This document shows, in pieces, positions 5,359-61,061 of a stretch of DNA of 64,000 nt; the stretch's first letter is position 1, and every line of letters begins with the position of its first letter. The notes below the pieces were generated by a model, which was given only the letters and a program-made list of their open reading frames with translations, did no database searches and was not told the DNA's origin. The position numbers and the translations under genes are program-made. Origin of the DNA: Bacteroidota bacterium (lineage in GTDB: Bacteria; Bacteroidota; Bacteroidia; Flavobacteriales_F; PHOS-HE28); NCBI GenBank assembly GCA_029573495.1, contig JAKQEI010000088.1, forward strand, positions 1-64,000. The letters are read 5' to 3'.

Positions 5359-5439
5359 CGAATGGTGAACGGAGAACACGAACGCCTTGATCCCCATTCA
5401 CCAGCTCCCATTCGCCATTCACCCTGAGTTCCTGCCTTC

Positions 5440-8400
5440 ATGAACATCAGCTCCCTTTCGATCAACCGGCCCGTCCTGGCGACGGTGATATCGATCTTCC
5501 TCGTGCTCTTCGGGGTGATCGGCTTCACCTACCTCGGCGTGCGCGAATACCCCAGCGTGGACCCGCCTGTGATCACGGTGACCACCAACTACGTGGGCGC
5601 GAACGCCGACATCATCGAGAAGCAGATCACCGAGGTGCTGGAGGAGAGCATCAACGGCATCGCGGGCATCACCAGCCTGACGAGCGTGAGCAGCGATGGA
5701 CGCAGCACCGTCACCGTGGAGTTCGACCTGGACATGGACCTGGAAGCCGCGGCCAATGACGTGCGCGACCGCGTGAGCCAGGCGGTGCGCAACCTGCCGA
5801 CGGATGCGGATCCGCCGATCGTGGTGAAGAGCAATGCGGACAGCAGTCCCATCCTGAGCATGACCATGCAGAGCGACCAGCGCTCGATGCTGGAACTGAG
5901 CGAGATCGCGAACAACCAGTTCAAGGAGCGGCTGCAGACGATCCCGGGCGTGAGCGAGATCCGCATCTGGGGCGAGAAGAAGTACAGCATGAAGTTGCAG
6001 CTGGATCCGGTGAAGATGGCCGGCTACCGCATCACCCCGGCCGATGTGCGCACCGCGCTCGACCGCGAGAACGTGGAGCTGCCGAGCGGCCGGATCGAGG
6101 GCTATCGCACGGAGCTGACGATCCGCACGATGGGCCGGCTGGAAACACCCGAGCAGTTCAACGACCTGATCCTGCGCGACGAGGAAGGCGTGGTGGTGCG
6201 TCTCCGCGATGTGGGCCGTGCTGAGCTGATGCCGGAGAACGAACGCAGCCTCCTCCGGGGGAACGGTGCCGTGCCGCAGGTGGGCATCGCGCTCACCCCG
6301 CAGCCGGGCAGCAACTACATCGCCATAGCGGATGAGTACTACAAGCGATTCAAGCAGATCAGCAAGGACCTGCCGGGTGACCTGCGCTACACGCTGGCCA
6401 TGGACACCACCATCGGCATCCGCAAGGCGATCACGGAAGTGGAGGAGACGATCGCCATCTCCTTCGCCCTCGTGGTGCTCATCATCTTCCTCTTCCTCCG
6501 GGACTGGCGCACCACGTTGATCCCCGTGCTCGCCATCCCGATCTCCCTCATCGGCGCCTTCTTCATCATGTACATCGCGGGCTTCAGCATCAATATCCTC
6601 ACGCTGCTGGCCGTGCTGCTCGCAACGGGGATCGTGGTGGACGATGCGATCGTGGTGCTGGAGAACATCTACAGCAAGATCGAGCGCGGCATGGATCCGA
6701 TCAAGGCCGGTCACGAGGGCAGCAAGGAGATCACCTTCGCCATCATCAGCATCACCATCACCCTGATGGCGGTCTTCCTGCCGGTGATCTTCCTCAGTGG
6801 GTTGACCGGTCGGCTGTTCCGCGAATTCGGTATCGTCGTGGCCGGCGCGGTGCTGATCAGCGCCATCGTCAGCCTCACGCTCACGCCCATGCTCAGCGCG
6901 CATTGGCTCAAGCATCAGCCTCGCCACAGCCGTTTCTTCGAGGTGACCGAGCGGTGGTTCAACAACATGACGGAAGGCTACAACCGCTCGCTGAAGCGCT
7001 TCATGCGGATGCGGTGGTTGAGCTGGGTGATCCTGCTGGTGAGCCTGGGGGCCACGGTACTGATCGGCTCGCAGCTGCAGAGCGAGCTGGCGCCGATGGA
7101 GGACAAGAGCCGTTTCATGGTGCAGAGCACCGCGCCGGAAGGCACCAGCTTCGAGGTGATGAACGACTACCTCACGGACATCATCGGCCTGGTGGACACG
7201 CTTCCGGAACGCCAGGCGTTGCTGAGCGTGACCGCACCGGGCTTCGGCACGGCGAGCAGCACCAACAACGGTTTCGTTCGTGTCACCCTGGTGGATCCCG
7301 CGGATCGGGACCGCACCCAGGACGAGATCGCCAAGGCGATCATGGCGGAACTGCCGAAGTACAACCTGGCCCGCAGCTTCGTGATCCAGGAACCCACGAT
7401 CGGCGGCTCACGCTTCACACGACTGCCGGTGGAATACGTGATCCAAGCGCCCACGTTCGAGAAGCTGCGCGAGGTGATCCCCATCTTCATGGAGAAGGTC
7501 GCCGCCGACAAGACCTTCCGTGTGAGCGACCTCAACCTCAAGTTCAACAAACCCGAACTGAACGTGGAGATCGACCGCGACCGGGCCCGCGCGCTCGGCG
7601 TGAGCATGCGCGACATCGCAGAGACGCTCCAGCTGTACTTCAGCGGGCAGCGCTACGGATACTTCATCTTCAAGGGGAAACAATACCAGGTGATCGGTCA
7701 GGCCACACGCGCGGACCGCGACGCACCGGTGGACCTGAGCGCGGCCTTCGTCCGCAACAACAAGGGGGAACTGATCCAGCTGGACAACCTCGTGCACATG
7801 AGCGACCGCAGCACACCGCCGCAGCTCTTCCGATACAACCGTTACGTGAGCGCCACGGTCAGTGCCGACCCCAACGAGGGCTTCACCATCGGTGACGGCA
7901 TCGCAGCGATGGACCGCATCGCCGACGAGGTCCTCGATGACACCTTCAGCACCACACTCGGCGGGGTGAGCAAGGAATTCGCGGAAAGCAGCAGCAGCCT
8001 GGGCTTCGCCTTCGGCCTGGCCTTCCTGCTCGTCTTCCTCATCCTCGCCGCACAGTTCGAGAGCTGGATCGATCCCGTGGTGGTGATCAGCACCGTGTTC
8101 GTGGCGGGCACCGGTGCCGTGCTCAGCCTCTGGATCTTCGACCACACGTTGAACATCTTCAGCAACATCGGCATCATCGTACTGATCGGCCTGGTAACGA
8201 AGAACGGGATCCTCATCGTGGAATTCGCGAACCAGCGCAAGGAACATGGTCTGAAGAAGATGGATGCCGTGATCGATGCCGCCACCCAACGACTGCGACC
8301 GATCCTGATGACCACGCTTGCCATGGTGCTCGGGGCCCTGCCGATCGCACTGGGCATCGGTGCCGCCGCGAAGAGCCGGGTTCCCATGGGCATCGTGATC

Positions 8401-43805: not shown

Positions 43806-44090
43806 TCCAGCAGCGCTGATCGACCGATGTCGGTTCATCACGATCGAGCATTCGCAATTCGTACGGTGCGCTGAATGGCTGATGCACCAACGCTTTCCGA
43901 ACGACGTCATCGATCGGCGTCACACGATGATCACACACGATGACGATCGAGTGATCGAAGAGAGCGCTTCCGTTCCGACCGCGTTGATCGATCGCTCATC
44001 GTCATCGACCTTCATCGCGGGTAACGATATCAACAATATTTGGTGGAACATTTTTTAACGCGAGCGCGTACACATTCGCGTCAACGCAGT

Positions 44091-44098
44091 TACGTTTG
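44091..44098 (+). promoter_or_regulatory. Candidate -7 element for the Lys/Ala-rich gene
   Basis: TACGTTTG matches TAnnTTTG, 21 nt before ATG 44120; no clear -33 TTG. Confidence 0.4.
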
Positions 44099-44119
44099 AC
44101 ACAAACAAACCCATTCGCC

Positions 44120-44251
44120 ATGGCCAAGAAGGCAGCAAAGAAGGCAGCTAAGAAAGCTGCTCCGAAGAAGGCAGCTAAGAAAGCCGCTAAGAAAGCAGCC
44201 CCTAAGAAGGCAGCTAAGAAAGCCGCTAAGAAAGCTGCGAAGAAGAAGTAA
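44120..44251 (+). CDS. 43-aa Lys/Ala-only histone H1-like protein
   Basis: Translation MAKKAAKKAAKKAAPKKAAKKAAKKAAPKKAAKKAAKKAAKKK*; candidate -7 element upstream, GNRA-loop terminator downstream; below ORF-track size cutoff. Confidence 0.85.
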   Translation: MAKKAAKKAAKKAAPKKAAKKAAKKAAPKKAAKKAAKKAAKKK

Positions 44252-44272
44252 GCAGCGTTCACGAACGCAAGG

Positions 44273-44304
44273 AAGGCCCCGAGAGATCGGGGCCTTTCGC
44301 TTTT
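44273..44304 (+). terminator. Rho-independent terminator
   Basis: AAGGCCCCGA-GAGA-TCGGGGCCTT perfect 10-bp stem, then tcgctttt. Confidence 0.85.
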
Positions 44305-44528
44305 GATGCACCACCGTTCCATCGTTGTCCGATGCGGTGTATCATCGGATGGCGATGATCGGGATCGCGATCATCGCTCCCATGCACCTCCCACTGTCAT
44401 GCGATGGACGCATTCATCACCGTAGGATACCGGTGGTCCGCTACTGGTGTTCCAAGGCGATCGAGGACGAAGCTCCCACCTCCGTTCCGCAGAGCATCGA
44501 GCGGGCCGGGCCACGATCACCCGCCATG

Positions 44529-45047: not shown

Positions 45048-46715
45048 TCAATCAACGTTGTCGTGGAGGAAGGGGTTGTTCCGGCGCAGCTCCACACGCC
45101 GGTCACCGTTCTCATCCTTCTCCTCGCTCAGCGTGTAACGGCTCACATTGCTGTCGGTGCTGTGCGTGCCTTCATTGAGCGTGATGTTCTTGCGCTTGTA
45201 TGCCGGCTCACGCTCCAGGTCGCTGAGCCCGTTCGGTGTGCGCAGGCGCATGTTCAGTTCACGCACCTTGGCAACGCGCTGTTCCACCCGGTTCTGGTGT
45301 TCGGCCGGTGTAAGGCGCGCCTCGGAGACCTCGCCACGCACTTCCGCGGCGCCATCGTTCAGGACCTCATCCGTGGTGTTGTCATACAGGGTGAACACCC
45401 GCTTCTCCGAACTCTCCATCGGCGATGAACCCTCGCTCACCGGCTGCTTCACCTCGGACGGTCCAGACCTTGCCGGTTCCTGGCGCGGCTGTGGGAAGTC
45501 GAGCGTCGGCTGCTTGCTCGCCTGGTCGTTCATCACGGGTGCCTCCTCCTCCTTCCTGGTCTCCACCTTCGCCTCCACCGGCTTCAGATAGGGTTCGAGG
45601 ACCGCCGGTTCCTCAATGGCAGGCGGTGCCACAGGCGCCTGGGGCGCACTCATGTTCACCGGGTTCAGGATGGGTTGCGTGATCATCGTCGGACGATCGG
45701 CATCCAATGGGATCACCGTGCGCGTGCCCAGCTCCGTGGCGATGGCGCCGGTCTCCGGGTTGATCTGGAATCCCGTGGCGATGACGGTGATCCGGATCTT
45801 GTCACCCAGGTTCTCGTCCTTGCCATAACCCCAGATCACATCGGCGGAACTGCCTGCGGCCTCCTGGATGTGGTCGGTGATCTCGGTCATCTCGTCCATC
45901 GAGAGGGCACGCTCGCCATGGGTCACGTTCAACAGGACGTACTTGGCACCCTTGATGTCGCTGTCGTTCAACAGCGGGGAGGAGAGCGCCTCGTGTGCGG
46001 CGCGCAGGGCGCGGTCCTCCCCATCCGCTTCGGCCATGCCCATGATGGCGACTCCGCTGCGGGTCATCACGGTGCGCACGTCCTCGAAGTCCACGTTCAC
46101 CTTGCCGATCTTGTGGATGATCTCGGCGATGCCACGAGCGGCGGTGGACAGCACGTTGTCGGCATGTTCGAACGCATTGTCCAATGACAGGTCGCCGTAG
46201 AGGTCGCGCAGCCGGTCATTGTTGATCACCAACAGGGTATCCACGGCGTTGCGCATCTCCTCGATGCCGGCTTCGGCCTGGTTCTTCCGCTTGCGGCCCT
46301 CCCACTGGAACGGGCTGGTGACGATGCCGACGGTGAGGATGCCCATGTCGCGGGCGATCTTGGCGATGACGGGCGCTGCACCCGTACCCGTGCCGCCACC
46401 CATGCCGGCGGTGATGAAGACCATCTTGGTGCGGGCGCTGAGGAGTGCCTTGATCTCATCGATGTTCTCCTGTGCGGCCTGATTGCCACGCTCGGGGATG
46501 GAGCCGGCCCCGAGCCCTTCCGTGAGGCTGAGACCGAGTTGAAGCTTCACAGGGATCGGGCTCACATCCAGGGCCTGACGGTCGGTGTTGCAGATGATGA
46601 AGTCAACGCCCTTGATGCCTTGGGCGAACATGTAGTTGACGGCGTTGCTGCCGCCACCGCCCACGCCGATCACCTTGATGATCGAGCTGAGCTCACGGGG
46701 AAGGTCGAATTTCAT
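45048..46715 (-). CDS. ftsZ: Cell division protein FtsZ
   Basis: KVIGVGGGGSNAVNYM, AGMGGGTGTGAAPVIAKIA tubulin signature; long C-terminal linker. Confidence 0.98.
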   Translation of the reverse strand: MKFDLPRELSSIIKVIGVGGGGSNAVNYMFAQGIKGVDFIICNTDRQALDVSPIPVKLQLGLSLTEGLGAGSIPERGNQAAQENIDEIKALLSARTKMVFITAGMGGGTGTGAAPVIAKIARDMGILTVGIVTSPFQWEGRKRKNQAEAGIEEMRNAVDTLLVINNDRLRDLYGDLSLDNAFEHADNVLSTAARGIAEIIHKIGKVNVDFEDVRTVMTRSGVAIMGMAEADGEDRALRAAHEALSSPLLNDSDIKGAKYVLLNVTHGERALSMDEMTEITDHIQEAAGSSADVIWGYGKDENLGDKIRITVIATGFQINPETGAIATELGTRTVIPLDADRPTMITQPILNPVNMSAPQAPVAPPAIEEPAVLEPYLKPVEAKVETRKEEEAPVMNDQASKQPTLDFPQPRQEPARSGPSEVKQPVSEGSSPMESSEKRVFTLYDNTTDEVLNDGAAEVRGEVSEARLTPAEHQNRVEQRVAKVRELNMRLRTPNGLSDLEREPAYKRKNITLNEGTHSTDSNVSRYTLSEEKDENGDRRVELRRNNPFLHDNVD

Positions 46716-46752
46716 GACGTTGGTATTTGGAAGGTGAACGGGAAGGATCGGT

Positions 46753-48054
46753 TCAGTTCTCGTCGTCCTTGAGTATCTCGGACGCGCTGTTGATGATGTT
46801 GCTGAAGAAGCCGCTGAGCGGTCCCTTGGAATGACCCTTCACGGCGACTTTCGCCGTGCGTTCGTTGGCCACCTCGAACTGCTTCGGTCGTTTGCGCTCC
46901 AGGTAGTCGAAGCCCTTCATCACGAGACCGACGCCGGTGGCGTAGAGCGGACTCGTCACCGCTTCCACGTTGCTCTTGGCCAGGTGCTCGTTCGGGTATC
47001 CGATGCGGGTGCTCATGCCGGTCATGTACTCCACAAGCTGCTTGAGGTGCTTCAGCTGCGAGCCGCCACCGGTGAGGACGACGCCCGCGATCAGCTGCTT
47101 CTCGATGCCGCTGTTCTTGATCTCGAAGTAGACATGGTCCAGGATCTCCTCCATGCGGCTCTGGATGATCTCGGCGAGCGTACGCAGGCTGATCTCCTTC
47201 GGATCGCGGCCGCGCAGCCCGGGGATGCACACCACCTCGTTGTCCTTGTTCTCGGAGGCCAGCGCACTGCCGAACTTGGTCTTCAGTAGTTCGGCCTGGT
47301 CACGCATGATGCCACAGCCCTGGCGGATGTCCTCGGTGATCACATTGCCGCCGAAGGGGATCACGGCGGTGTGGCGGATGATGTTGTCGAAGAAGATGGC
47401 GATGTCGGTGGTCCCACCACCGATGTCGACAAGCACCACGCCAGCCTCCTTCTCCTCGGAGCTCAGCACCGCATCGGCGCTGGCCAGCGGCTCAAGGATG
47501 AGCTCGGTGACATTGAGTCCCGCCCGGTGCACGCACTTGTTGATGTTGCGCGCGGCGGTCACCTGACCACTGATGATATGGAAGTTGGCCTCCATGCGGA
47601 TACCGCTCATGCCGATCGGGTCCCGGATGCCCTGTTCGTTGTCCACGATATACTCCTGCGGTAGCACATGGATGATCTCCTCACCTGGCGGCATCACCAG
47701 GCGGTAGGTCTCATCGATGAGCGCATCGATGTCCGTCTGTGTGATCTCCTCCTCGAGGCTCTCGCGCATCTTCATGCCACGGTGCTGCATGCTGCGGATG
47801 TGCTGTCCGGCGATCCCCACGTTCACCGTGCCGATATCGACACCGGCGTTGTCACCGGCCTCACGCACGGCGGCTTTGATGCTCTCCACGGTCTTCTGGA
47901 TGTTGGCGACCACGCCGCGGCTCACACCGTCGCTCTTCGCCTTGCCCATGCCGAGGATCTCGATCTTCCCCTGCTCGTTCTTCCGCCCGACGATGCAGGC
48001 GATCTTCGTCGTTCCGATGTCGAGTCCGGCGACGATGTCTTGGTTGTGGTCCAT
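46753..48054 (-). CDS. ftsA: Cell division protein FtsA
   Basis: IVAGLDIGTTKIACIVGR; VVLVDIGGGTTDIAIF; gene order. Confidence 0.97.
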   Translation of the reverse strand: MDHNQDIVAGLDIGTTKIACIVGRKNEQGKIEILGMGKAKSDGVSRGVVANIQKTVESIKAAVREAGDNAGVDIGTVNVGIAGQHIRSMQHRGMKMRESLEEEITQTDIDALIDETYRLVMPPGEEIIHVLPQEYIVDNEQGIRDPIGMSGIRMEANFHIISGQVTAARNINKCVHRAGLNVTELILEPLASADAVLSSEEKEAGVVLVDIGGGTTDIAIFFDNIIRHTAVIPFGGNVITEDIRQGCGIMRDQAELLKTKFGSALASENKDNEVVCIPGLRGRDPKEISLRTLAEIIQSRMEEILDHVYFEIKNSGIEKQLIAGVVLTGGGSQLKHLKQLVEYMTGMSTRIGYPNEHLAKSNVEAVTSPLYATGVGLVMKGFDYLERKRPKQFEVANERTAKVAVKGHSKGPLSGFFSNIINSASEILKDDEN

Positions 48055-48069
48055 GGTATTCGTGGAGTG

Positions 48070-48873
48070 TTAGGGCGTTGTTCGTTTGGTGCATACGACC
48101 TGGTCGGCGTAGCGCAGATCGATCCGCGCATAGTTCCGCCAACCGGCCTGGGGTATTCCTTTCTCGTAGAAGATCCGCAGCTTCTCGAAGCGCTGCGCGA
48201 GCTCGGCGCCATCGCCCAGCAGGATGCGGTGACCACCCACACGCGGGATGAGCTCGAACTCACCTTCCCCGGTCACGACCACCTGATCGATGAGGGCGTT
48301 CCAGAAGGGGTCGGCGGTGATATGCGATGCCAATCGATGGATGTCGTCCAGCCGCGACCCCGTGGCCCGGTCATCCGTGGCGTACACATTGCGCACACCT
48401 TCCGCAATGCCTGGCACATCACCGATCCCTGTGACCACGAGCACGCGCGCCGTGTATTCGGGGCTGGTGGGCATGGTCCAACCTTCGCGATCGATGTAGA
48501 ACGACCCGCCGTTCCGGTCGAACACACGCACGATGGGTACACGCTGCGTCACGTGTGCGTGAAGGCGGCCGTCCATGGTGTGATAGACCTGGGCCTTCGC
48601 CACGCTCGGGATGTTCTTCAACCGTTCCTCGATCGTGGTGATATCCACATCACCGGTGGCAGAACCCATCACCGTCGTACCCTGGTCCAGCACTTCCTGG
48701 CGCACGGAACGTTCGTCGATGAAATGGAGGCCTTCCGCACTCTCCACGATGACCTCGAGGTCCGAAATGGGAGTGTGATCGGCCGTGCGTTCCACGAAAC
48801 CAAGGGCCACGATGACCCCGATCAGTGCACAGGCGATACCGACCGGACGTAGCATTCGCTTCAGCTTCTTCAT
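48070..48873 (-). CDS. ftsQ: FtsQ-like cell division protein
   Basis: N-terminal TM, POTRA-like VEERLKNIPSVAKAQVYHTMDGRLHAHVTQRVPIVRVFD; between murC and ftsA. Confidence 0.85.
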   Translation of the reverse strand: MKKLKRMLRPVGIACALIGVIVALGFVERTADHTPISDLEVIVESAEGLHFIDERSVRQEVLDQGTTVMGSATGDVDITTIEERLKNIPSVAKAQVYHTMDGRLHAHVTQRVPIVRVFDRNGGSFYIDREGWTMPTSPEYTARVLVVTGIGDVPGIAEGVRNVYATDDRATGSRLDDIHRLASHITADPFWNALIDQVVVTGEGEFELIPRVGGHRILLGDGAELAQRFEKLRIFYEKGIPQAGWRNYARIDLRYADQVVCTKRTTP

Positions 48874-50249
48874 GACCGGTAGCGTTCGTTCAACAGTGTT
48901 TCGATGCGAGGGACGAGACGATCGATGTCCCCCGCCCCCAGTGTGACCACCACCTGCACATCGCGCTGGCGCAGTTCCTCCAGCAGGCCTTCACGTGTGA
49001 CGCATTCCTTCACGTCCATCGGCACCCGCTCCAACAGCCATTTCGAAGTGATGCCGGGCAGGGGTTCCTCACGGGCGGGATAGATGTCCAGGAGGAGCAG
49101 TTCATCCAAGGCGGAAAGGCTGCGACCGAACTCACTCGCGAGATCGCGGGTGCGCGAGAAGAGATGCGGCTGGAAGATGCCGGTCACGCGCTTGCCAGGA
49201 TACATCTCCCTGAGGCTCGCGATGCAGGCGTCCAGTTCCCTTGGATGATGGGCATAGTCGTCGATGTAAACCACTTCCGGCCCGGCGATCCGTGTTTCGA
49301 AGCGGCGCGAGACGCCACGGAACGAATCGAGCCCCAGCCGCAAAAGGTCCGCGGTGACACCCGCGCGCAGGGCCATGGTGCTCGCAGCGATGGCGTTCTC
49401 CACGTTATGACGACCGGGCATGCCCAGCCGCAGATCCTTGAGCACCTGACCTTCGGTATGCAGGTCGAAATGGTAGGCGCCCTTCTCGACACGCAGGTTC
49501 TCGGCGCGTGGTCCGCCAGTGCTCCCAAGGGCGTACGTGGTCACCCCTGATCGACCATTGAAGTGGGCCGCGATGCGCTCATGCACCAGCAGTGGTCCGT
49601 CGCCCAGCGTGGCAAAGGCGGTGTATGCCTCGAACATCGCCTCGGGCGTGCCGTAGATGTCGAGATGGTCCGGATCCATCGCCGTGATGACCGACCCGCT
49701 CGGATGCAGCTTGAGGAAGCTCCGGTCGTACTCATCGGCCTCGACCACGTTCACCACGGCGTCATCGTTCAGAAGCACGTTGGTGCCATAGTTCACCGCG
49801 ATGCCGCCCAGGAACGCGTTGCAACGCACGCGGCCCACGGTGAGGAGGTGCGCGAGCATGGTGCTCACGGTCGTCTTGCCATGCGTTCCTGCAATGGCCA
49901 GCGTGGGCTGATCGCGCGTCACCATGCCAAGCACCTCGGCCCGTTTCGCGATCCGGGCACCACGTTCCACCCAATACTTGAGCAAGGGGCTGGTCGCTGG
50001 AACGGCCGGGGTCCGAACCACCATCACATCGGCCGGAGTCGCCTTGCGGAACTCCTCGGGGATCAAGCGCGGATCCTCTTCGAAATGCACGTCGATCCCT
50101 TCGCTGAGCAATTGGTTGGTCAGCTCGCTGGGAGTTCGATCGTAGCCGGCCACCTCGGCGCCGTGCCTTCGGAAGTAACGCGCAAGGCCGCTCATCCCGA
50201 TGCCACCGACACCGATGAAGTACAGCTTATTCCCCTTGTGCGTGTTCAT
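48870..50249 (-). CDS. murC: UDP-N-acetylmuramate-L-alanine ligase
   Basis: FIGVGGIGMSGLA; AIAGTHGKTTVSTMLAHLL; DDYAHHPRELDA. Confidence 0.97.
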   Translation of the reverse strand: MNTHKGNKLYFIGVGGIGMSGLARYFRRHGAEVAGYDRTPSELTNQLLSEGIDVHFEEDPRLIPEEFRKATPADVMVVRTPAVPATSPLLKYWVERGARIAKRAEVLGMVTRDQPTLAIAGTHGKTTVSTMLAHLLTVGRVRCNAFLGGIAVNYGTNVLLNDDAVVNVVEADEYDRSFLKLHPSGSVITAMDPDHLDIYGTPEAMFEAYTAFATLGDGPLLVHERIAAHFNGRSGVTTYALGSTGGPRAENLRVEKGAYHFDLHTEGQVLKDLRLGMPGRHNVENAIAASTMALRAGVTADLLRLGLDSFRGVSRRFETRIAGPEVVYIDDYAHHPRELDACIASLREMYPGKRVTGIFQPHLFSRTRDLASEFGRSLSALDELLLLDIYPAREEPLPGITSKWLLERVPMDVKECVTREGLLEELRQRDVQVVVTLGAGDIDRLVPRIETLLNERYRS

Positions 50250-51391
50250 TCGCGTGGACTTGCTTTCGTTCCCCTGCTCCTTCCAAGTCGGATCACCTCG
50301 GCGGCGTTCTGCACGCCCATCGTGGCTATCGCCAGATGCAACCGTTCCAGCGCATCCTTGTCATTGATCAGTTCCAACACCACCCGTCCCAGGTCCTGCA
50401 CCGCATCCGCATCCTTCACCAGGACGGCTGCACCCCGATCGGTCAACGCACGCGCGTTGTGGGTCTGGTGATCCTCTGCGGCGGTCGGCAGCGGCACCAG
50501 GATCGCGGGCTTCTGTACCAGGCACAATTCGCTCACGCTGATGGCGCCGGCCCGTGCGACCACGAGGTCGGCAACGGCGTAGGCGTAGTCCATCCTGGCA
50601 ACGAACTCATGCACCTTGCAATCGGAGTAGTTCAACCGGGCGACGGCTTCCTGTGCCTGCTTGAGATAGGGCGTTCCAGTCTGCCAGATCACCTGAAGCC
50701 CGGCAGCCTGGAAGTCCTTCAGCGCCGCTTCGATCCCACGGTTCACCCCACGCGCACCGAGGCTGCCTCCGGTGATGAACAACACGGGCTTCCCTTCCAC
50801 CAGGCCGAAGTGCTCCATCCCGCGGGGTCGCTTGCCCTGCAGGCGGACCATCTCCTGCCTCACCGGGTTCCCGGTCAGCAACAACTTCTCCTTCGGGAAG
50901 AACCGGTCCATGCCGTCGTAGGCCACGCAGATCCGGTCCACCCGTTTCGAGAGATAGATGTTCGTCCTTCCCGGGAAGCTGTTCTGTTCCTGGATCAGGG
51001 TGGGCACCTGCATACGCTGTGCTGCGGCGAGCAGCGGACCGCTCGCATAACCCCCCACGCCAACGGCCACATGCGGTTCGAAGGTGCGTACGAGTCGACG
51101 TGCCTTCATCATGCTGCGCAAAACACGCCAGGGCAAGGCGAGGTTCTTCACAATGGAACCACGCTGGAAACCCCGGATGGGCAGACCCTCGATCGCATAG
51201 CCCGCGGCCGGCACCTTATCCATCTCCATCTTCCCTTCGGCCCCCACGAAAAGGAATCGTGCCGCAGCATCCCGCTCGCGCACCGCGTTGGCGATGGCGA
51301 TGGCCGGAAAGATGTGACCGCCGGTGCCCCCACCGGAGATCATCACCCGCAGGTCTCCCTCAGGCGAATGCGGTGCGCGGTCGTTGGACAT
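50246..51391 (-). CDS. murG: UDP-GlcNAc undecaprenyl-PP-MurNAc-pentapeptide GlcNAc transferase
   Basis: VMISGGGTGGHIFPAIAIANAV; ITGGSLGARGVN; start approximate, overlaps ftsW 3' end. Confidence 0.95.
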   Translation of the reverse strand: MSNDRAPHSPEGDLRVMISGGGTGGHIFPAIAIANAVRERDAAARFLFVGAEGKMEMDKVPAAGYAIEGLPIRGFQRGSIVKNLALPWRVLRSMMKARRLVRTFEPHVAVGVGGYASGPLLAAAQRMQVPTLIQEQNSFPGRTNIYLSKRVDRICVAYDGMDRFFPKEKLLLTGNPVRQEMVRLQGKRPRGMEHFGLVEGKPVLFITGGSLGARGVNRGIEAALKDFQAAGLQVIWQTGTPYLKQAQEAVARLNYSDCKVHEFVARMDYAYAVADLVVARAGAISVSELCLVQKPAILVPLPTAAEDHQTHNARALTDRGAAVLVKDADAVQDLGRVVLELINDKDALERLHLAIATMGVQNAAEVIRLGRSRGTKASPRE

Positions 51392-52535
51392 CGTTGTTCG
51401 CGGGAGCTTGTTCTTCGTTGCCACGGCTCACGCTGAGCATGATGCCGATGGCGAGGCAGGTGAACCAGACACTCGTACCACCCATGCTCACGAGCGGCAG
51501 GGGTTGACCGGTGACGGGCACGAGGTTGACGGCAACGGCCATGTTGATCATGGCCTGGAGGACGAGCATAAGGCCGAGACCGATGGCGGCGAGCGCACCG
51601 AAGGGCTTCTGGCAGCCGGAGGCCACGCGCACCGCCCGGAAGAGCAGGATCAAGTAGAGCAGCAAGAGCCCCAGGCCACCGAGGATGCTTCCGTACTCCT
51701 CGATGATGAACGCGTAGATCATATCGGAGTACGGGTGCGGCAGGAAGTTGCGCGACTGCCCGCTACCAGGGCCGTTGGGCAGGAAACCACCCGAAGCGAT
51801 CGCGATCTTGGCGTGCTCCACCTGGTAGTTGGCGTCGTGGTCCTCCACGCCGAATGATTCGATGCGCCCCACCCAGGTATCCAGCCGCGGCAGCAGACCG
51901 GGGGTCGACTTCGCGAGCACGAGCAACAGGATGAACACGCCGATCGCAGCGCCCATGATCACCACCATGTGCTTCAACGGCACCTGGCCGATGAACATGA
52001 TGACCAGGCAGACCGTGAAGAGCACGGCGGCGGTGGAGAAGTTCGCGGGCAGGATCAGTCCGCAAATGGCGCCCACCGGTACCATGAGCTTCACCAGGAC
52101 ATCGCGCAGGCTCCACTCCTGACCGTGGTGCTTGCCCAGCACGCGTGCGAGGTAGACGATGAGCACCACCTTCGCGGGATCGCTCGTCTGGAAGCTCTGG
52201 TTGATGATGGGGATGGTGATCCAGCGGCTCGCGTCGTTGATATTGGATCCGAGCAGGAGCGTGAGCAACAACAACACCGCCATCACACCGATGAGCAATT
52301 GCGACAGGCGGGAGTAGATCGTGAACTGCTGCTTCGATACATAGTACATGATGGCGCCCCCGGTGATCAGCATGATCCCATGCTTCATCAGGTAGTGCAT
52401 GGTGCTTCCACCCTCGTGCTTGAAGGCGAGGGAACTGATGGAGCTGTACACCGCGAGCAGGCTGATCAGTCCCAGGAACAGGACCGTCATCCAGATCACG
52501 CGATCGCCCTTCAGCTTATGGATCACCGTGTTCAT
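51360..52535 (-). CDS. ftsW: FtsW/RodA/SpoVE family peptidoglycan polymerase
   Basis: Multi-TM; NGPGSGQSRNFLPHPYSDMIYAFIIEEYGSILGGLGLLLLY; PLPLVSMGGTSVWFTCLAIG. Confidence 0.95.
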   Translation of the reverse strand: MNTVIHKLKGDRVIWMTVLFLGLISLLAVYSSISSLAFKHEGGSTMHYLMKHGIMLITGGAIMYYVSKQQFTIYSRLSQLLIGVMAVLLLLTLLLGSNINDASRWITIPIINQSFQTSDPAKVVLIVYLARVLGKHHGQEWSLRDVLVKLMVPVGAICGLILPANFSTAAVLFTVCLVIMFIGQVPLKHMVVIMGAAIGVFILLLVLAKSTPGLLPRLDTWVGRIESFGVEDHDANYQVEHAKIAIASGGFLPNGPGSGQSRNFLPHPYSDMIYAFIIEEYGSILGGLGLLLLYLILLFRAVRVASGCQKPFGALAAIGLGLMLVLQAMINMAVAVNLVPVTGQPLPLVSMGGTSVWFTCLAIGIMLSVSRGNEEQAPANNDVQRPRTAFA

Positions 52536-52544
52536 CGTTCGCTC

Positions 52545-53054
52545 TTAGAGATCGCGTACCGCACGTTTGAACTCCGCCCCACGCTCCTCGTAGTTCGCGA
52601 AGCCATTGCCGCTCGGGCATGCCGGGCTGAAGAGCACGGACTCGCCCGGACGTACCAGCTCGTTCGCCAGGAAGACGGCCGTCCGCAGTTCATCGGTCAC
52701 ATAGAGGTGCTCCACGGGCGCGGCACCCTCCTTCTCCACACCATCCACGGCACGGCCGAAGAGCACCATCGCGCTCACCTTCTCGATCAACAGGTCCTGC
52801 ACATGTCCTTCGTCCATCTCGTTGCACACGTCGCCCACGATCCACACCACCTTGCCGGGCATCTGCGCAAGCGATTCCAATGAAGCGTCGAGGAAGGTGG
52901 CACGGGAGTCGTTGATGTATTCGACTCCGTTGCGGGTGGCCACATGCTCCAACCGGTGCGGGCCGGGCCCTTGTGTGGAGAGCGCGGCGCGCCGGGCATC
53001 CACCAACTGACCACCGGCCAGGCGGAGCGAGGGGATCGGTTTCTTCTCTTCCAT
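52545..53054 (-). CDS. Stand-alone MurD C-terminal-domain paralog (169 aa), lacking the N-terminal and central ATP-grasping domains
   Basis: [22 protein letters not shown]...SPACPSGNGFANYEERGAEFKRAVRDL aligns with the C-terminal domain of adjacent MurD; start MEEKKPIPSL, 20 bp after murD stop, 9 bp before ftsW start. Confidence 0.85.
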   Translation of the reverse strand: MEEKKPIPSLRLAGGQLVDARRAALSTQGPGPHRLEHVATRNGVEYINDSRATFLDASLESLAQMPGKVVWIVGDVCNEMDEGHVQDLLIEKVSAMVLFGRAVDGVEKEGAAPVEHLYVTDELRTAVFLANELVRPGESVLFSPACPSGNGFANYEERGAEFKRAVRDL

Positions 53055-53074
53055 GGGTTCCGGGTATTGAATGG

Positions 53075-54409
53075 TCAAAGACCTCTCACAGCGGACTTGA
53101 AGCGACGGCCGCGTTCCTCGTAGTTCTCGAACAGGTCGAAGCTGGCACAGGCCGGGCTCAGCAGCACCACATCCCCGGACTCGGCCATGCCGTTCGCAGT
53201 GATCACGGCCTGTTCTGCGCTGGCCGTGTCCACGATGATGGGCACCACGCCGGCGAAGGCCTTGTGGACCTTCGCGTTGTCGGTCCCCAGGCAAACGATC
53301 GCCTTCACCTTCTGCTTCACCAGATCCATCAACGAGCTGTAATCATTGCCCTTGTCCACCCCACCGGCGATCCAGATCACGGGCTTGTCCATGCTTTCCA
53401 GCGCGTACCAGGCCGAGTTCACATTGGTGGCCTTGGAGTCGTTGATGTACTCCACACCATGCACCATGGCCACATGCTCCAGGCGATGTTCCACGTTCTG
53501 GAAATCGCTGAGGCTGTCGCGCACGATATCGCTGCGGATCTCGAGCACACGTGCGGCGATCCCGGCCGCCATGGAGTTGTACACGTTGTGCTTCCCTTTG
53601 AGTGCGAGTTCGATGATGGACATGTGGAAGGTGGATCGGTTCGTGTTGATGTGGATGTTTTCGTCTTGCAGGAATGCGCCTTGATCGACGGTGTGCTGTA
53701 TGGTGAAAGGCCAGCGATGCGCCTTCACGGAATGCGTGTGGAGCCACGCGTTGGACTCGGGGTCGTCAGCGCAGTGGATGAAATGGTCCTCCTCCCGCTG
53801 GTTCATGGCGATGCGGAACTTGCTCGCCACGTAGTTCTCCATGCGGTACTCGTACCGGTCCAGGTGGTCCGGTGTGATGTTCAACAGGATCGCCACGTCC
53901 GGCCTGAACGTGATGATCCCGTCCAGCTGGAAGCTGCTCAGCTCAAGCACGTACCAGGCGTTGTCCCCATCGGCCACGAGCCCGGCGAAGCTGGTGCCCA
54001 CGTTACCCCCAACGGCCACGTCAAGACCGGCCCGCTTGAGGATGTGATGCGTGAGCAGGGTGGTCGTCGTCTTCCCATTGCTGCCGGTGATCGCCACGAT
54101 GCGTCCGTTGGCGTGGCGATAGGCGAACTCGATCTCGCTGATCACGGGGATGCCCTTCTCGCGCACGGCCCTGACCAGCGAAGCGGCATCCGGAATGCCG
54201 GGGCTCTTCACCACCTCGTCCGCTTCCAGGACACGCGCCACGGTATGGCCTCCTTCCTCGAACGCGATCCCCAGGGACCTGAGCTCCTCCCGGTAGGCCG
54301 GCTTCACTGCACCGTTGTCGCTCACGAACACATCGAGCCCGCGCTGCTTCGCCAACCGCGCCGCACCGACACCGCTTTCCTGTGCACCGAGGACCACGAG
54401 CTTCTTCAT
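53075..54409 (-). CDS. murD: UDP-N-acetylmuramoylalanine-D-glutamate ligase
   Basis: [46 protein letters not shown]. Confidence 0.97.
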
Positions 54410-55656
54410 CGGAGCTTGAGGGTTACGATGGACAGGACGGCGAGCATGATGCCCACGATCCAGAAGCGGCTCACGATCTTGCTCTCGTGGACCCCCTTCT
54501 TCTGGTAGTGGTGGTGCAATGGTGACATCAGCAGGATCCTGCGTCCTTCACCGTACTTCTTGCGTGTGTACTTGAAATAGGACACCTGCGCCATCACGCT
54601 CAGGTTCTCCACGAGGAAGATGCCGCAGAGCACGGGGATCAGCAGTTCCTTGCGCACCAGGATGGCGAGCGTGGCGATGATGCCTCCCAGCGCGAGGCTG
54701 CCCGTATCTCCCATGAAGACCTGCGCCGGATAGGCGTTGTACCAGAGGAAGCCGATGCAGGCACCGAGCAGGGCACCGATGAACACCGCGAGCTCACCGC
54801 TGCCCGGGATGTACATGATGTCCAGGTATTGCGCGAAGATGATGTTGCCGCTCACGTAGGCCAGGATGCCCAGGGTGAGCACCATGATCGCACTGGTACC
54901 GGTCGCCAGTCCGTCAAGTCCGTCTGTGATGTTGGCGCCGTTGCTCACGGCGGCGATGATGAAGATGATGATGCCGATGTAGAGGATCCAGGTGTACTGC
55001 CTGGCGCCGTTGCCGAAGAGCTTCGCGAGGATGGAGGAGTAGTTCAGCTCATTGTCCTTCACGAAGGGGATCGTCGTGTTCGGTGACTTCCGGTTGAGCA
55101 TGTAGTGCTGCGTGCCATCCTCCTCGGTGATGATGTGCACGTCCTTCTCCTCGAACTGTTGCGCGATCACCTCGGGCACCTCGACACGTGTTCGGATCTC
55201 GGGGTGGAAGTACACGGTGGAGCCGATGATGATGCCCACGCCCACCTGACCGACCACCTTGAACTTGCCGGCGAGTCCGCGCTTGTCCTTCTTGAAGACC
55301 TTGATGTAGTCATCAATGAAGCCGATGGCACCCAGCCACACCGTGCTCACGAGCAGCAGCAGGATGTAGATGTTGTCCAGCCGCGCGAAGAGCAACGTGG
55401 GGATGATCGTGGCCGAGAGGATGATGAGTCCGCCCATCGTCGGCGTCCCCTGCTTCTGGATCTGCCCCTCGAGCCCGAGGTCGCGCACCGTTTCACCCAC
55501 CTGCATGCGCCTCAGGAGGTTGATGATGCCCTTGCCCCACCACAAGGAGATGAGCAACGAGATGAAGACCGCCATCGCCGCGCGGAAGGAGATGTAGGTG
55601 AACAACCCCGAACCGGGAACGCGCGCACCAAGCCAGTCGAAGAGGTGGTACAGCAT
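54406..55656 (-). CDS. mraY: Phospho-MurNAc-pentapeptide transferase
   Basis: [34 protein letters not shown]. Confidence 0.98.
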
Positions 55657-57119
55657 TACTTGTGGAGGAGTTCAAGGGTTTCCTGCAGCACGGCCACATC
55701 GTCGAAGGGGTGCTTCACCCCGTTGACCTCCTGGTAGGTCTCGTGACCCTTTCCGGCGATCAACACCACATCACCCGGCTTCGCGATGCCCACCGCCTGC
55801 CGGATGGCCTCGCGGCGATCGGCGTTCACGTACACGCGTGGCTGGTCACCGGCCTGCACCCCTTCCCGCATCTCGTTGAGGATGGCCATGGGGTCCTCGC
55901 TGCGCGGATTGTCGCTGGTGAGCACCACCTGATCGCTCAGCTCCGAGGCGATGCGCGCCATCACCGGACGTTTCGTTCTGTCCCGATCACCACCGCAGCC
56001 CACCACCGTGATCACCTGTTCGGTATCGCCCACCACATCGTTGATCGTCGTGAGCACGTTCTTCAGCGCATCCGGCGTATGGGCATAATCCACGATCCCG
56101 ATGATGCCGCCCGTGCTGCGCACGATCTGGAAGCGGCCGCGCGGCGGCTGCAGATCGCTCACGGCGGTGAGCACGTTCATCGACGGTTCGCCGAGCAGGA
56201 TGGCGACCGTGTAGGCCGCGAGCAGATTGCTGGCATTGAACGTACCGATCAACCGCGAGTACACATCATGCCCGTCGATGTTCAGGTGCAGCCCGGTGAG
56301 CTGGTTCTCCACGATGCGGGCCTTGTGGTCCGCCATGTTCCGTACGGCGAACGAGTGTTTGCTCCCCTTCGTGTTCTGCAGCATCACCGCGCTGTTCGCA
56401 TCGTCGGCGTTCACCAGGGCGAAGGCCGAGGCGGGCAGCTGGTCGAAGAAGCGCTTCTTGGCCTTGATGTACTCGGCGAAGGTGCCGTGGTAGTCCAGGT
56501 GATCGTGCGTGATGTTCATGAACACCGCGCCGGTGAACTGCAGGCCGGCGATGCGCTCCTGCACCACGCTGTGGCTGCTCACCTCCATGAAGCAATGCGT
56601 CACCTTCTCCGCCACCATCTCTGCGAGCAGCTCGTTCAGGCGGATCGCATCGGGCGTGGTGTGCGTGCTGGGGATGGTGCGCTGGCCGATCCGCGTCTCC
56701 ACGGTGCTGATCAATCCGCACTTGTGTCCCAGTGCGCGGAACAGGCGGAAGAGCAGGGTGGCCGTGCTCGTCTTCCCGTTGGTGCCGGTGATGCCAACGA
56801 GCTTCAGCTTCTTCGAGGGGTGGTCGTGGAAGTTGGCGGCGAGCACGCCAAGGGCGGCGGCGGCATCCTCCACGCGCACATAGGTCACACCCTCCTTCAG
56901 CTCGGCCGGCAGCACCTCGCAGATGATGGCGCTGGCGCCGCTCTCGATGGCCTTCGCGATGAAATCGTGACCGTCCGCCTGGGTGCCGCGTGTGGCGACG
57001 AAAGCGGTGAAGGCGACGACCTTGCGGCTGTCGAACGCGATGGCCTCGATCGCCGTGTTGGTTGAACCGACCACCTGCTCGATGCGCACCTTGTATAGGA
57101 TGTCCCTGAGCAGCTTCAT
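55656..57119 (-). CDS. murE: UDP-MurNAc-tripeptide synthetase MurE
   Basis: [44 protein letters not shown]; start MKLLRDIL. Confidence 0.97.
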
Positions 57120-59224
57120 GTCAGTTCGATCGTGATGGTCGATCCCTGGAAGGCCCTCGAGCCGGGTTGCAGCGACTGGCGCTTGACCATGCCATTGCCC
57201 TGTACCTTCACACGCAGGCCCCGGTTCTCGAGGATGTAGAGGGCATCGCGGAGGCCCATGCCCAGCACATTGGGTACCCGGTCCATGGCGTCCGCCGGGA
57301 TGCCGCGGGGCTTCAACACCACCGTGGAATCGCCCGCTTCGGTGGTCACCCACTCACTCTCCCCTTCCACCCGGATGGTAACGCCCAGTCCTTCGAGCGC
57401 GGTGCGCAGGTCCGCTGAATGACCGCTCAGGCTCACCGGCGTACGCGGTCCGTCGACCACGGCCAGACGCGTCTGCTGCTGCAGCTCGATCCGGTTGCTG
57501 TAGATCTTGTCCGCGATCTCCTTGAAGATCGGCCCCGCCACCACGTTGCCATAGTATCCGCTCATGGTGGGCCCGTTCACCACCACGATGCAGCTGTACT
57601 TCGGCGCGTCCGCTGGGAAGTATCCTACGAAGGAGGCCTGATAGCTCAACCCGTGCTCCTTGTAGCTGCCGTTCTTCGCCACCTGCGCCGTCCCCGTCTT
57701 CCCCGCGATGGCGAAATGCGCGGCGCGCAGGTTCATCGCCGTTCCGGTATCGACCACCGCGCGAAGCATCCGGTGAGCGATCTCCAAGGTCGACTCCGAA
57801 CAAATGCGCGGGTTGATCACCTGCGGCGGCATCCGTTCCACCACCTTCCCGTTCCGTGACACGTGGTCAACGAATTGCGGGCGCATCATCCTGCCGCCGT
57901 TCGCCACGGCATTGTAGAAGGTGAGCACCTGCAGGGGTGTGAGCGCTGTCTCGTAGCCGATGCTCATCCAGGGCAGGCTCACCCCGCTCCATCCCTTCTC
58001 TCCCGGACTGCGCATCGTAGGGGTAGCCTCGCCGGGGATCCGCACGCCGGTGACCTCGTGCAGGCCCATGCGCTTCAGACCCGCCACGAATCGCTTCGGA
58101 TCCTGCTGGTAGGCCTTGTTCACAGCGATGCTGATGCCCGTGTTCGATGAGACCTCGAAGGCCCGCTGCACCGTGATGCGCCCGAACCCGCCCTCGTGCG
58201 AATCGCGCATGATGCGGTTGTAATAACGCACCTGGCCATTGCGGGTGTCCACGGTATCGGTCGGTCTGATGGTACCATCCTCGAAGCCGACCATGAGGCT
58301 CGCGAGCTTGAAGGTGGACCCGGGTTCGGTGGCGTGGGCGACCGCGTAGTTGAGGTCCTCCACATAGGTGCTGTCGTTGCGGCGGGTGAGGTTGCTGATC
58401 GCCTTGATGTAGCCGGTCTCCACTTCCATCACCACCACGGTGCCGTACTGCGCGCCGTGCTTGATGAGCTGACGCTCCAGTGCGGCATCGGCCACATCCT
58501 GCAGGTTGATGTCGATCGTCGTGTGGATGTCGCTGCCCGGAACCGGGTCCACACCGTCGCCATTGTCAACGGGCATCCACACACCGCCGGTCAGTCGACG
58601 CTCCAGACGGCGGCCGGTCACACCGCGGAGCCATTGGTCGTAACCACCCTCCAGACCGAGCGTGCTGCTGTCGCGCAACACGTAACCCACACTGCGCGAC
58701 GCCAGACGACCGAAGGGATGTACGCGCACGGTGCGCTTCTCGGTGAGCAGCCCGCCTTTGTAGCGACCGAGACGGAACAGCGGGAAGGTGCGCAGCTGCT
58801 GCACCTGGGTGTGGTCCGCACGACGCTTCACCAGGTGATAGCGCTCCTTGCGATGGCGCGCATCGGTGAGATCACGCTTGTACTCGGTGGCCGAACGGTC
58901 GCCGAACAAAGCCGCGAGCCGCAGGCTCAATGAATCGATGTTGGCGCGGAACAGATCGTCGGTGAGTCCGCTCGCCATCAGGTCCATGCGCACATCGTAC
59001 TCCGGTACGCTGGTGGCGAGCAACCGGCCGTCCTCGCTGTAGATGTGGCCGCGATCGGGCTGGACCGTGCGGTAGGTGGTGCTCACCGTTCCAGCCTTGG
59101 CCAGCCACTTGTCACCTTCCGCGATCTGGATCGTGAAGAGCTTGACGGCGATGGCGATGGCGAAGAGGACGATGGCCACATAGACCATGTTGGCACGCGC
59201 TCGGAACTGCTTGTTGTCCGTCAT
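57116..59224 (-). CDS. ftsI: Division-specific penicillin-binding protein (FtsI-like, C-terminal PASTA)
   Basis: TEPGSTFKLASLMVGFEDG (SxxK), SSNTGIS (SxN), AGKTGTAQ (KTG); PASTA-like tail. Confidence 0.95.
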   Translation of the reverse strand: MTDNKQFRARANMVYVAIVLFAIAIAVKLFTIQIAEGDKWLAKAGTVSTTYRTVQPDRGHIYSEDGRLLATSVPEYDVRMDLMASGLTDDLFRANIDSLSLRLAALFGDRSATEYKRDLTDARHRKERYHLVKRRADHTQVQQLRTFPLFRLGRYKGGLLTEKRTVRVHPFGRLASRSVGYVLRDSSTLGLEGGYDQWLRGVTGRRLERRLTGGVWMPVDNGDGVDPVPGSDIHTTIDINLQDVADAALERQLIKHGAQYGTVVVMEVETGYIKAISNLTRRNDSTYVEDLNYAVAHATEPGSTFKLASLMVGFEDGTIRPTDTVDTRNGQVRYYNRIMRDSHEGGFGRITVQRAFEVSSNTGISIAVNKAYQQDPKRFVAGLKRMGLHEVTGVRIPGEATPTMRSPGEKGWSGVSLPWMSIGYETALTPLQVLTFYNAVANGGRMMRPQFVDHVSRNGKVVERMPPQVINPRICSESTLEIAHRMLRAVVDTGTAMNLRAAHFAIAGKTGTAQVAKNGSYKEHGLSYQASFVGYFPADAPKYSCIVVVNGPTMSGYYGNVVAGPIFKEIADKIYSNRIELQQQTRLAVVDGPRTPVSLSGHSADLRTALEGLGVTIRVEGESEWVTTEAGDSTVVLKPRGIPADAMDRVPNVLGMGLRDALYILENRGLRVKVQGNGMVKRQSLQPGSRAFQGSTITIELT

Positions 59225-59643
59225 GGGCGTGTGCGTTCGAGGCGGTCCTCGTCGACCTCCAGTTTCACGGGTGGCACGCGGCTCTCCTTCAGTCCCAGCT
59301 GGCCGATGCCGGAGGCCACCTGGCTCTGTTGTTCCGCCTTCTCGAGCTGGGCGCGCACGGTGATGTACTCCGAGCGCAATTCCTTCAGCTCGGAATCGGT
59401 GCGGTGCAGGTCGCGCACCACGCGTTCGGTGTGATAGCCATAGGCGATGTAGGCGATCATCAATCCGGCGCAGAAGAGGATGAAGGGCATGTTGCCGAGC
59501 AGCTTCTCGCGCGTGAGGAATGAGCCGTTCAGCACGCCGATCATCAGCCGGGGCACGCGCACGCTGCCACCCGGCCTGGCAGTGGCCTTGCGGGACTTTG
59601 CCGCCGGGGCTTCCTCCTCCTGCTTGTCGCGCAGCTTGTTCAC
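59221..59643 (-). CDS. FtsL-like protein
   Basis: Single TM plus heptad-like coiled coil between rsmH and ftsI. Confidence 0.75.
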   Translation of the reverse strand: MNKLRDKQEEEAPAAKSRKATARPGGSVRVPRLMIGVLNGSFLTREKLLGNMPFILFCAGLMIAYIAYGYHTERVVRDLHRTDSELKELRSEYITVRAQLEKAEQQSQVASGIGQLGLKESRVPPVKLEVDEDRLERTRP

Positions 59644-60545
59644 GTGCGTGTGGCTATTCTCAATCGGGCGCTCCTGGCCCGGGGGTTCCTTGCTATCTCG
59701 GTATCCGTTGGTTGGATGGCCTTGTTGCTTGAAGGGTCGAAAGGCCGGTTGCGATTGCCGAAGACGTCCTTCGTCTCCTCACCACCGAGGTCACCACTGC
59801 GCATCCAGTTCTTCACCAGGCGGTCCTCCAGGCTGTGGTAGCTCATCACCACCAGGCGTCCTCCGGGCGCGATCACCTCGGCGCTCTGCCGCAGCAGTGC
59901 TTCGAGGGAAGCCAGTTCATCGTTCACCGCGATGCGCAGTGCCTGGAACACCTGGGCGAGGAAGGCGCTCTCCTTCCCACGTGGCGTCACCGGCTTCAGC
60001 GCCTCCACCAGCTGGTGGGTGGTCCCGATCCGCGTATCGGCGCTCGCCTTCACCAGCTGCCGGGCCACCCGGTGAGCGCCTTCCACCTCACCATACTTCC
60101 GCAACACACCGGTCAGCGCCGCTTCATCCAGGTCGCACAGGAGCTGCGAGGCGGTTCGCTTCCCGCGATGGTCCATGCGCATGTCCAGCGGACCATCGAA
60201 GCGGAAGCTGAAGCCGCGCGCACCGGTGTCGAACTGGTGGCTGCTCACGCCGAGATCGGCGAGCAGGCCGTTCACCGGAATGGCATGCAGGTAGCGCAGG
60301 TGGTTGCGCAGCCAACGGAAATCGGCCTTCACGAGCGTGAAGCGATCGTCGGTCGGCGCATTCCTCCAGGCATCGCGATCACGATCGAACGCGATCAATC
60401 GGCCCTTTGGACCCAGCTGGGCGAGGATGGCCTTGCTGTGGCCTCCGCCACCGAACGTCACGTCCACATAGACGCCGTCGGGGTGGATGTTCAATCCTTC
60501 AAGACAGGCTTGTAAAAGAACGGGGTCGTGATACTCATGCGTCAT
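59640..60545 (-). CDS. rsmH: 16S rRNA (cytosine1402-N4)-methyltransferase
   Basis: YHDPVLLQACLEGLNIHPDGVYVDVTFGGGGHSKAIL; ISYHSLEDR-like VMSYHSLEDRLVKNW. Confidence 0.97.
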   Translation of the reverse strand: MTHEYHDPVLLQACLEGLNIHPDGVYVDVTFGGGGHSKAILAQLGPKGRLIAFDRDRDAWRNAPTDDRFTLVKADFRWLRNHLRYLHAIPVNGLLADLGVSSHQFDTGARGFSFRFDGPLDMRMDHRGKRTASQLLCDLDEAALTGVLRKYGEVEGAHRVARQLVKASADTRIGTTHQLVEALKPVTPRGKESAFLAQVFQALRIAVNDELASLEALLRQSAEVIAPGGRLVVMSYHSLEDRLVKNWMRSGDLGGEETKDVFGNRNRPFDPSSNKAIQPTDTEIARNPRARSARLRIATRT

Positions 60546-60993
60546 TGGGTTTACCGGCCATGACTTTCGCCGCCAACGACTTGAAGTCCACATTCCCGCT
60601 CAGCGCGCGCTTGTATCCGCCCTCGCTCCAGATCTCGATGCGATCGCCCATGCCCGCGAACACGATGTCCTTGCCGAGGTTGGCGTAGGACATCAATGTC
60701 TTCGGGAGCAGCAATCGCCCTGAGGCGTCGAGCTCCACCGGCGTGGCCCCGTTGAGGAAACGCCGGATGAACTCCACGTTCTCCGGGTCGAAGCGGTTCA
60801 ACCGGCGCACCTCTGCGCTGGTCCTGTTCCACTCGTCCATCGGATAGAGTACGAGACACTCGCTGAACACATCGCGGTTCACCACGAAGCCCTTGGACTC
60901 CGCCCCACCGAGCTGCTTCTTCAGCGCGGCGGGCAAGAGCGCTCGGCTCTTGGCATCCAAGGTTCCCGGGTATTCCCCTAATAGGTTCAGCAT
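60535..60993 (-). CDS. mraZ: Transcriptional regulator MraZ
   Basis: LGEYPGTLDAKSRALLPAALKKQL; PVELDASGRLLLPKTLMSYA. Confidence 0.96.
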   Translation of the reverse strand: MLNLLGEYPGTLDAKSRALLPAALKKQLGGAESKGFVVNRDVFSECLVLYPMDEWNRTSAEVRRLNRFDPENVEFIRRFLNGATPVELDASGRLLLPKTLMSYANLGKDIVFAGMGDRIEIWSEGGYKRALSGNVDFKSLAAKVMAGKPNDA

Positions 60994-61017
60994 AGCGCAT
61001 GCACGCAGGAATGGTCG

Positions 61018-61061
61018 CGAAAGTAGGCGGGACCGCCCACTTACCCCCACTTATTCCCCCG
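61018..61061 (-). promoter_or_regulatory. Candidate mraZ promoter with MraZ-box-like direct repeats
   Basis: Minus strand: CGGGGGAATA-AGTGGGGGTA-AGTGGGCGGT, 10-bp period (61036-61061); downstream TACTTTCG (61018-61025). Confidence 0.6.

Follow-up and report, generated by a model that had tools for sequence, protein, structure and literature searches.

A conserved stand-alone MurD C-terminal domain beside ftsW in Bacteroidia, a candidate docking subunit of lipid II assembly

Why would a cell wall operon that encodes a complete MurD also keep a separate gene for the C-terminal domain of this enzyme, and does that domain have work to do outside MurD catalysis? MurC and MurD count as indispensable enzymes and as broadly conserved targets for antibacterials, and a literature search covering open-licence papers found no description of a stand-alone, truncated or paralogous MurD, or of the absence of murC or murD. 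The gene in question, here termed the orphan, lies between murD and ftsW in the dcw cluster of the window, by which is meant the whole stretch of 64,000 nucleotides that was analysed.

The orphan and its place in the dcw cluster

The locus comprises the following features:

45048..61050, minus strand: dcw cluster, in the order mraZ, rsmH, ftsL-like, ftsI, murE, mraY, murD, orphan, ftsW, murG, murC, ftsQ, ftsA, ftsZ (ORFs, named from sequence and order)
53075..54409, minus strand: murD, complete, with all catalytic motifs, 444 aa (409.9 bits to the murD equivalog, cut-off 211.95)
52545..53054, minus strand: orphan MurD C-terminal-domain gene, 169 aa (Mur_ligase_C and murD profiles, relatives, dN/dS, fold)
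52977..53027, minus strand: N-terminal helix of the orphan, residues 10-26 (alignment and AlphaFold model, with local pLDDT of 45-63 in residues 1-30)
52548..52958, minus strand: MurD C-terminal (Rossmann-like) domain of the orphan, residues 33-169 (Pfam over 33-146, AlphaFold, Foldseek to MurD)
51360..52535, minus strand: ftsW, 391 aa (ORF; position conserved in relatives, name by similarity within dcw clusters)

A first-pass annotation had placed a 169-aa ORF 20 bp after the murD stop and 9 bp ahead of ftsW without giving a strand. These distances were verified on the minus strand, with the murD stop ending at 53075, the orphan ATG at 53054 and the ftsW start at 52535. The window belongs to a draft assembly with an estimated contamination of 8.5%, though the orphan nonetheless occurs in 32 independent relatives.

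The orphan is a homologue of the Mur_ligase_C family (PF02875), with a shared fold and homology over the domain. The Pfam profile matches it at E 5e-6 (27.8 bits, slightly short of the 28.4-bit gathering threshold), and the NCBIfam murD profile at 111.2 bits through profile positions 296-440 of 441 only, which fails the curated cut-off of the MurD equivalog TIGR01087 (211.95 bits). Searched with the orphan profile, PDB sequences yielded MurD alone (E 7.5e-35), and its own genome contains two matches only, namely the orphan and the C-domain of the adjacent MurD (44% identity). An AlphaFold model built on the family alignment (mean pLDDT 81) has the MurD C-domain fold, and the best solved structures retrieved with it by Foldseek are all MurD (E 7e-12 for P. 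aeruginosa MurD). Preceding this domain, the helix of residues 10-26 matches the last MurD helix before the C-domain, a remnant of the central-domain end, and its R21 (E. coli 285) is conserved in 100% of the same-genus orphans. Pfam detects Mur_ligase_C only, with neither Mur_ligase_M (ATPase, GKTTT) nor an N-terminal UDP-binding domain in the orphan, and no remnant of the missing MurD domains lies upstream in the window, either in-frame, in agreement with the first-pass annotation, or out-of-frame.

Two other ORFs of this region have unusual sequences. The ftsZ ORF (45048-46715, minus strand, 555 aa) has a long C-terminal extension beyond the GTPase core, and a minus-strand ORF at 44002-44322 is strongly repetitive (AAFLAAFL); the opposite strand there would read as a lysine/alanine-rich tail, so that this stretch probably represents a repeat tail of histone-like type and not a minus-strand gene.

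Catalytic positions in the orphan

Residues are given in E. coli MurD numbering, assigned from the C-domain sequence and anchored on the agreement of H301, K319, K348 and S415. Three stretches of the orphan correspond to MurD active-site motifs:

52893..52910, minus strand: DSRATF (MurD DSKATN, E. coli 317-322), with D and T kept, K319 changed to R and N322 to F
52818..52835, minus strand: GDVCNE, the eroded GG-x-D-K motif, with K348 lost (alignment)
52590..52628, minus strand: loop SPACPSGNGFANY, with S415 kept, position 416 changed from F to G and 418 from L to G, and Y155 at the position of E. coli F422

The motifs DSRATF and GDVCNE and the sequences quoted in the first-pass annotation are correct, and the window orphan has R, T, no K and S at K319, T321, K348 and S415, respectively. 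SPACPSGNGF replaces the corresponding SPAC-S...F loop of MurD; of the two residues said to be kept in this loop, the serine is indeed S415, but the phenylalanine meant is F419, and the F422 position is occupied by Y155.

Positions that are 95-100% invariant in MurD (R302, K319, N322, K348, L/F416 and F/Y422) are variable in orphans, and differently so by lineage. K348 is lost in same-genus orphans, is K in at most 17% of those of other families and in 40% of those from a genus without MurD (see below). R302 is kept in 59-62% of duplicates, K319 is mostly R in same-genus orphans and variable across orphans generally, and S415 is kept in 55-85% across orphans, with 55% in the MurD-less genus. 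D317 (97%) and T321 (95%) are kept in same-genus orphans, and T321 is replaced by V, G or L in most ORFs of the MurD-less genus. The orphan also changes faster than MurD within the same genus (mean column entropy of 1.49 vs 0.67 bits). DSKATN is replaced by DS[RK][AS]TF in the window's genus and the loop by SPACPSGNGF, and the strong conservation of these new forms suggests a specific, lineage-typical contact surface, not decay.

Since positions invariant in MurD (K319, K348, S415 and F422) are eroded differently from lineage to lineage, the orphan is a pseudoenzyme domain; with two of the three Mur-ligase domains missing and the catalytic residues varied, it is non-catalytic alone. It thus combines conservation with absence of catalysis, as a pseudoenzyme scaffold or docking subunit does. 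The loss of D-Glu and substrate positions weakens the interpretation of the orphan as a UMAG/D-Glu decoy, as does the free C-domain in the same slot of the MurD-less genus.

Conservation, selection and separate origins

Among 34 genomes of the same genus that were searched, 32 contain MurD and the short ORF, and the remaining two contain neither the orphan nor a MurD match; the orphan adjoins murD in every genome having murD (32/32). Their orphans are between 97% and about 33% identical to that of the window. For pairs of close relatives, dN/dS of the orphan is 0.04-0.20, matching the range of the murD C-domain in those genomes; several dS values are near saturation, and the pairs of moderate dS agree. 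Frames are open and intact across dozens of genomes. A pseudogene is ruled out by these ratios and intact frames, and a sequencing error or a full second MurD by the recurrence of the same short ORF in all 32 genomes.

A survey of the class (396 genomes, followed by direct locus mapping) showed that 14 more family-level groups of Bacteroidia (f4, f5, f9, f11, f12, f20, f24, f27, f29, f31, f36, f40, f43 and f73) have a free MurD C-domain ORF, about 160-220 aa long, in the interval from murD to ftsW. Named records with such an ORF include L066, a MAG of Salibacteraceae, and L080, L081 and L103, MAGs of Flavobacteriales. With this distribution and the purifying selection on it, the earlier description of a duplicated, catalytically degenerate domain kept as a separate gene is borne out, and the decay or absence in relatives and the dN/dS near 1 that would have spoken against it were not observed. 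The orphan is absent from L247 (G328), where 117 bp (5348-5464) separate ftsW and murD though other members of the family have it; this is likely a lineage-specific loss. Copy number varies in the other direction too: two differing MurD C-domain ORFs (180 and 191 aa) stand in tandem in the murD-ftsW gap of L055 (5448-6555) and L151 (4034-5141), and one genome with a cluster copy (G037 C9) carries a second ORF of 179 aa off the dcw cluster, among unrelated genes (L143:4283-4822).

In the C-domain tree, 25 of 27 duplicate orphans form one clade (support 96/95), with the f11 and L081-type orphans outside it. Their placement makes two duplications possible, while the AU test does not reject one origin for all 27 (p-AU 0.42). 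Orphans that have diverged less can still be aligned at their N-terminus with the helices that end the MurD central domain, indicating that the gene originated by partial tandem duplication of murD. MurD of orphan-bearing lineages is shifted at positions 312, 314, 397 and 401, where orphans retain the older state; however, members of that clade which lack the orphan (L130, L132 and L247) share the shift at 314, and a two-way count gave one column vs three, with no excess. Subfunctionalisation was therefore given no weight.

A free C-domain also occurs in a genus of Flavobacteriaceae that has no MurD. The MAGs L048, L087 and L088 (Flavobacteriaceae/Bacteroidia) have the order mraY - MurD C-domain - ftsW - murG - ftsQ, with neither murD nor murC in the cluster and, genome-wide, no full MurD and no MurC over the cut-off. 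Normal MurD is found in 39 of 41 genomes of their family. Across the genus of G442, to which L241 (G442), L249 (G461), L250 (G459), L087, L088, L048 and others belong, MurD exceeds the cut-off in 0/22 genomes and the short C-domain ORF is present in 20/22. All ten clusters that are readable across murG-ftsQ lack murC and carry the C-domain ORF between mraY and ftsW. A search for Mur_ligase_M in this genus recovered only MurE, MurF, Mpl and FolC-like proteins, named by position, length and further comparison, vs six proteins in MurD-bearing controls, including MurC and MurD. An artefact of draft genomes is ruled out by this search and by two genomes that are single contigs (G442, 3,534,456 bp; G461, 2,606,817 bp), in which glutamate racemase (MurI) is kept. 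Mpl of the genus is 74% identical to the Mpl of a MurD-bearing control and 27% to the control MurC. MurE, MurF, MraY, MurG and FtsW are likewise retained.

The ORF of the MurD-less genus (about 185 aa) is under purifying selection (dN/dS 0.03-0.16) and has the same predicted fold as the duplicate orphan. It nests within Flavobacteriaceae MurD (support 100/97), and a common origin with the duplicate is rejected (p-AU 0.024), indicating a separate event in which the catalytic two thirds of murD were lost; a murD remnant upstream of this ORF was looked for and none was seen. A free MurD C-domain therefore arose at least twice in the same operon slot, once without MurD.

Candidate roles and comparison with known systems

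The tentatively preferred explanation (probability about 0.45) is that the orphan is a small, non-catalytic subunit for docking or scaffolding in lipid II assembly. It would have formed in an ancestor of several Bacteroidia families, when the part of murD for the C-domain and the last central-domain helix was duplicated in tandem. Its product may dock on the lipid II machinery of its own operon at the cytoplasmic face (MurE, MraY, MurG, FtsW and MurD), offering the surface of a MurD C-domain but none of the activity of MurD. Binding to a partner, and the identity of that partner, are inferred. Neither catalysis nor regulation of MurD readily explains why a free C-domain is kept in cells that lack both MurD and MurC, and two independent origins beside ftsW, one of them without MurD as a client, are most simply read as a common job independent of catalysis, most likely protein docking. 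There is precedent for such contacts in Thermotoga maritima, where MurD, MurE and MurF are reported to bind MurG and MreB, and MurG has been proposed as the scaffold (PMC6420597). Of the three roles suggested in the first-pass annotation, regulator, scaffold and ligand decoy, the predicted scaffold survives best. Several observations count against docking: fast evolution of the orphan would require a lineage-specific interface, its absence from some members of the wider clade (G328) indicates that it is not universally needed, the second copy off the dcw cluster in one family (L143) departs from the conserved slot, and the duplicate and the truncated form, being of separate origin, may differ in function.

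An unlikely but possible role for the duplicate is that of a MurD-specific regulator, in which the free C-domain would bind the N-terminal and central domains of MurD, compete with or stabilise the closed state of the mobile C-domain of MurD and thereby tune the flux into UDP-MurNAc-L-Ala-D-Glu. Closure of the C-domain is the key movement of MurD (PMC4816537), the orphan invariably follows murD directly wherever the duplicate occurs, and the loops that would lie opposite the active site of MurD (DSRATFLDA and SPACPSGNGFANYEERG) belong to the best conserved stretches of the orphan in the window's genus. However, a free C-domain is under purifying selection in the same slot of a genus without any MurD, which weakens this role and, given the independent origin of that domain, only weakens it.

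It is improbable that the orphan serves as a sensor or decoy by binding D-Glu, UMAG or nucleotide. The retention of D317 and T321 in same-genus orphans is consistent with such binding, but K348 is lost, K319 is mostly R, L416 is changed to G and R302 persists in 59%, and the MurD-less genus has largely dispensed with T321 and keeps S415 in little over half of its ORFs. Mur ligases moreover form their substrate sites at the junctions of domains, and the orphan has only one of the three. The division of labour among these three domains is described in PMC6420597.

Slightly less probable still is a split enzyme, in which the free C-domain would act in trans with another Mur ligase, such as Mpl in the MurD-less genus, and so restore D-Glu addition. 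This genus keeps glutamate racemase, MurE, MurF and Mpl, and D-Glu must still enter its stem peptide; however, the D-Glu-site residues of its C-domain are degenerate (T321 lost in most, K348 kept in 40%) and its Mpl is ordinary, closely resembling that of the MurD-bearing relative. A functionless relic, whether a duplicate in decay or a second murD broken by a frameshift, would account for the fast sequence change and the absence from some wider-clade members, but is refuted by dN/dS and distribution, the gene being intact in dozens of genomes with no upstream remnant of the missing domains.

More broadly, the chances seem about even that the MurD C-domain of Bacteroidia has a second function apart from MurD catalysis. 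On this reading, duplication and truncation freed the domain on at least two occasions at one site of the dcw cluster, and it persists in a genus whose wall is made with neither MurC nor MurD, perhaps by an Mpl-dependent route. That genus poses the question of how the stem peptide receives L-Ala and D-Glu, and one possible answer is a route that depends on Mpl and starts from preformed peptide. If the docking role is correct, a conserved non-catalytic MurD domain in the main operon for division and cell wall synthesis, retained even in the absence of MurD, would mean that a Mur ligase has a separable structural function. A docking part that can be deleted while catalysis is left intact would also open the cytoplasmic Mur complex, long a matter of debate, to direct genetic study.

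Compared with MurD itself, the orphan is alike in sequence (44% to the adjacent C-domain), fold and operon slot, but is a separate gene without UDP-binding and ATPase domains and with changes at K348, N322 and other catalytic-loop residues. The C-domain protein of the MurD-less genus, about 185 aa long, is likewise this domain as a separate protein, encoded in the same slot upstream of ftsW and under purifying selection, whereas it has another origin in the tree and arose when murD lost its N-terminal two thirds, murC being lost too. The MurE-like subunit of the plastid-encoded RNA polymerase, a fold match (8r6s_Q), is likewise a Mur-ligase relative serving as a structural subunit, though it is a full-length MurE relative in a transcription complex and the orphan a lone C-domain in a cell wall operon. 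MurT/GatD, retrieved in the fold search as 6h5e, resembles the proposed arrangement in having a Mur-ligase-like protein in a two-subunit complex; MurT, however, keeps its ATPase domain, is catalytic and has no sequence relation to the orphan beyond the fold.
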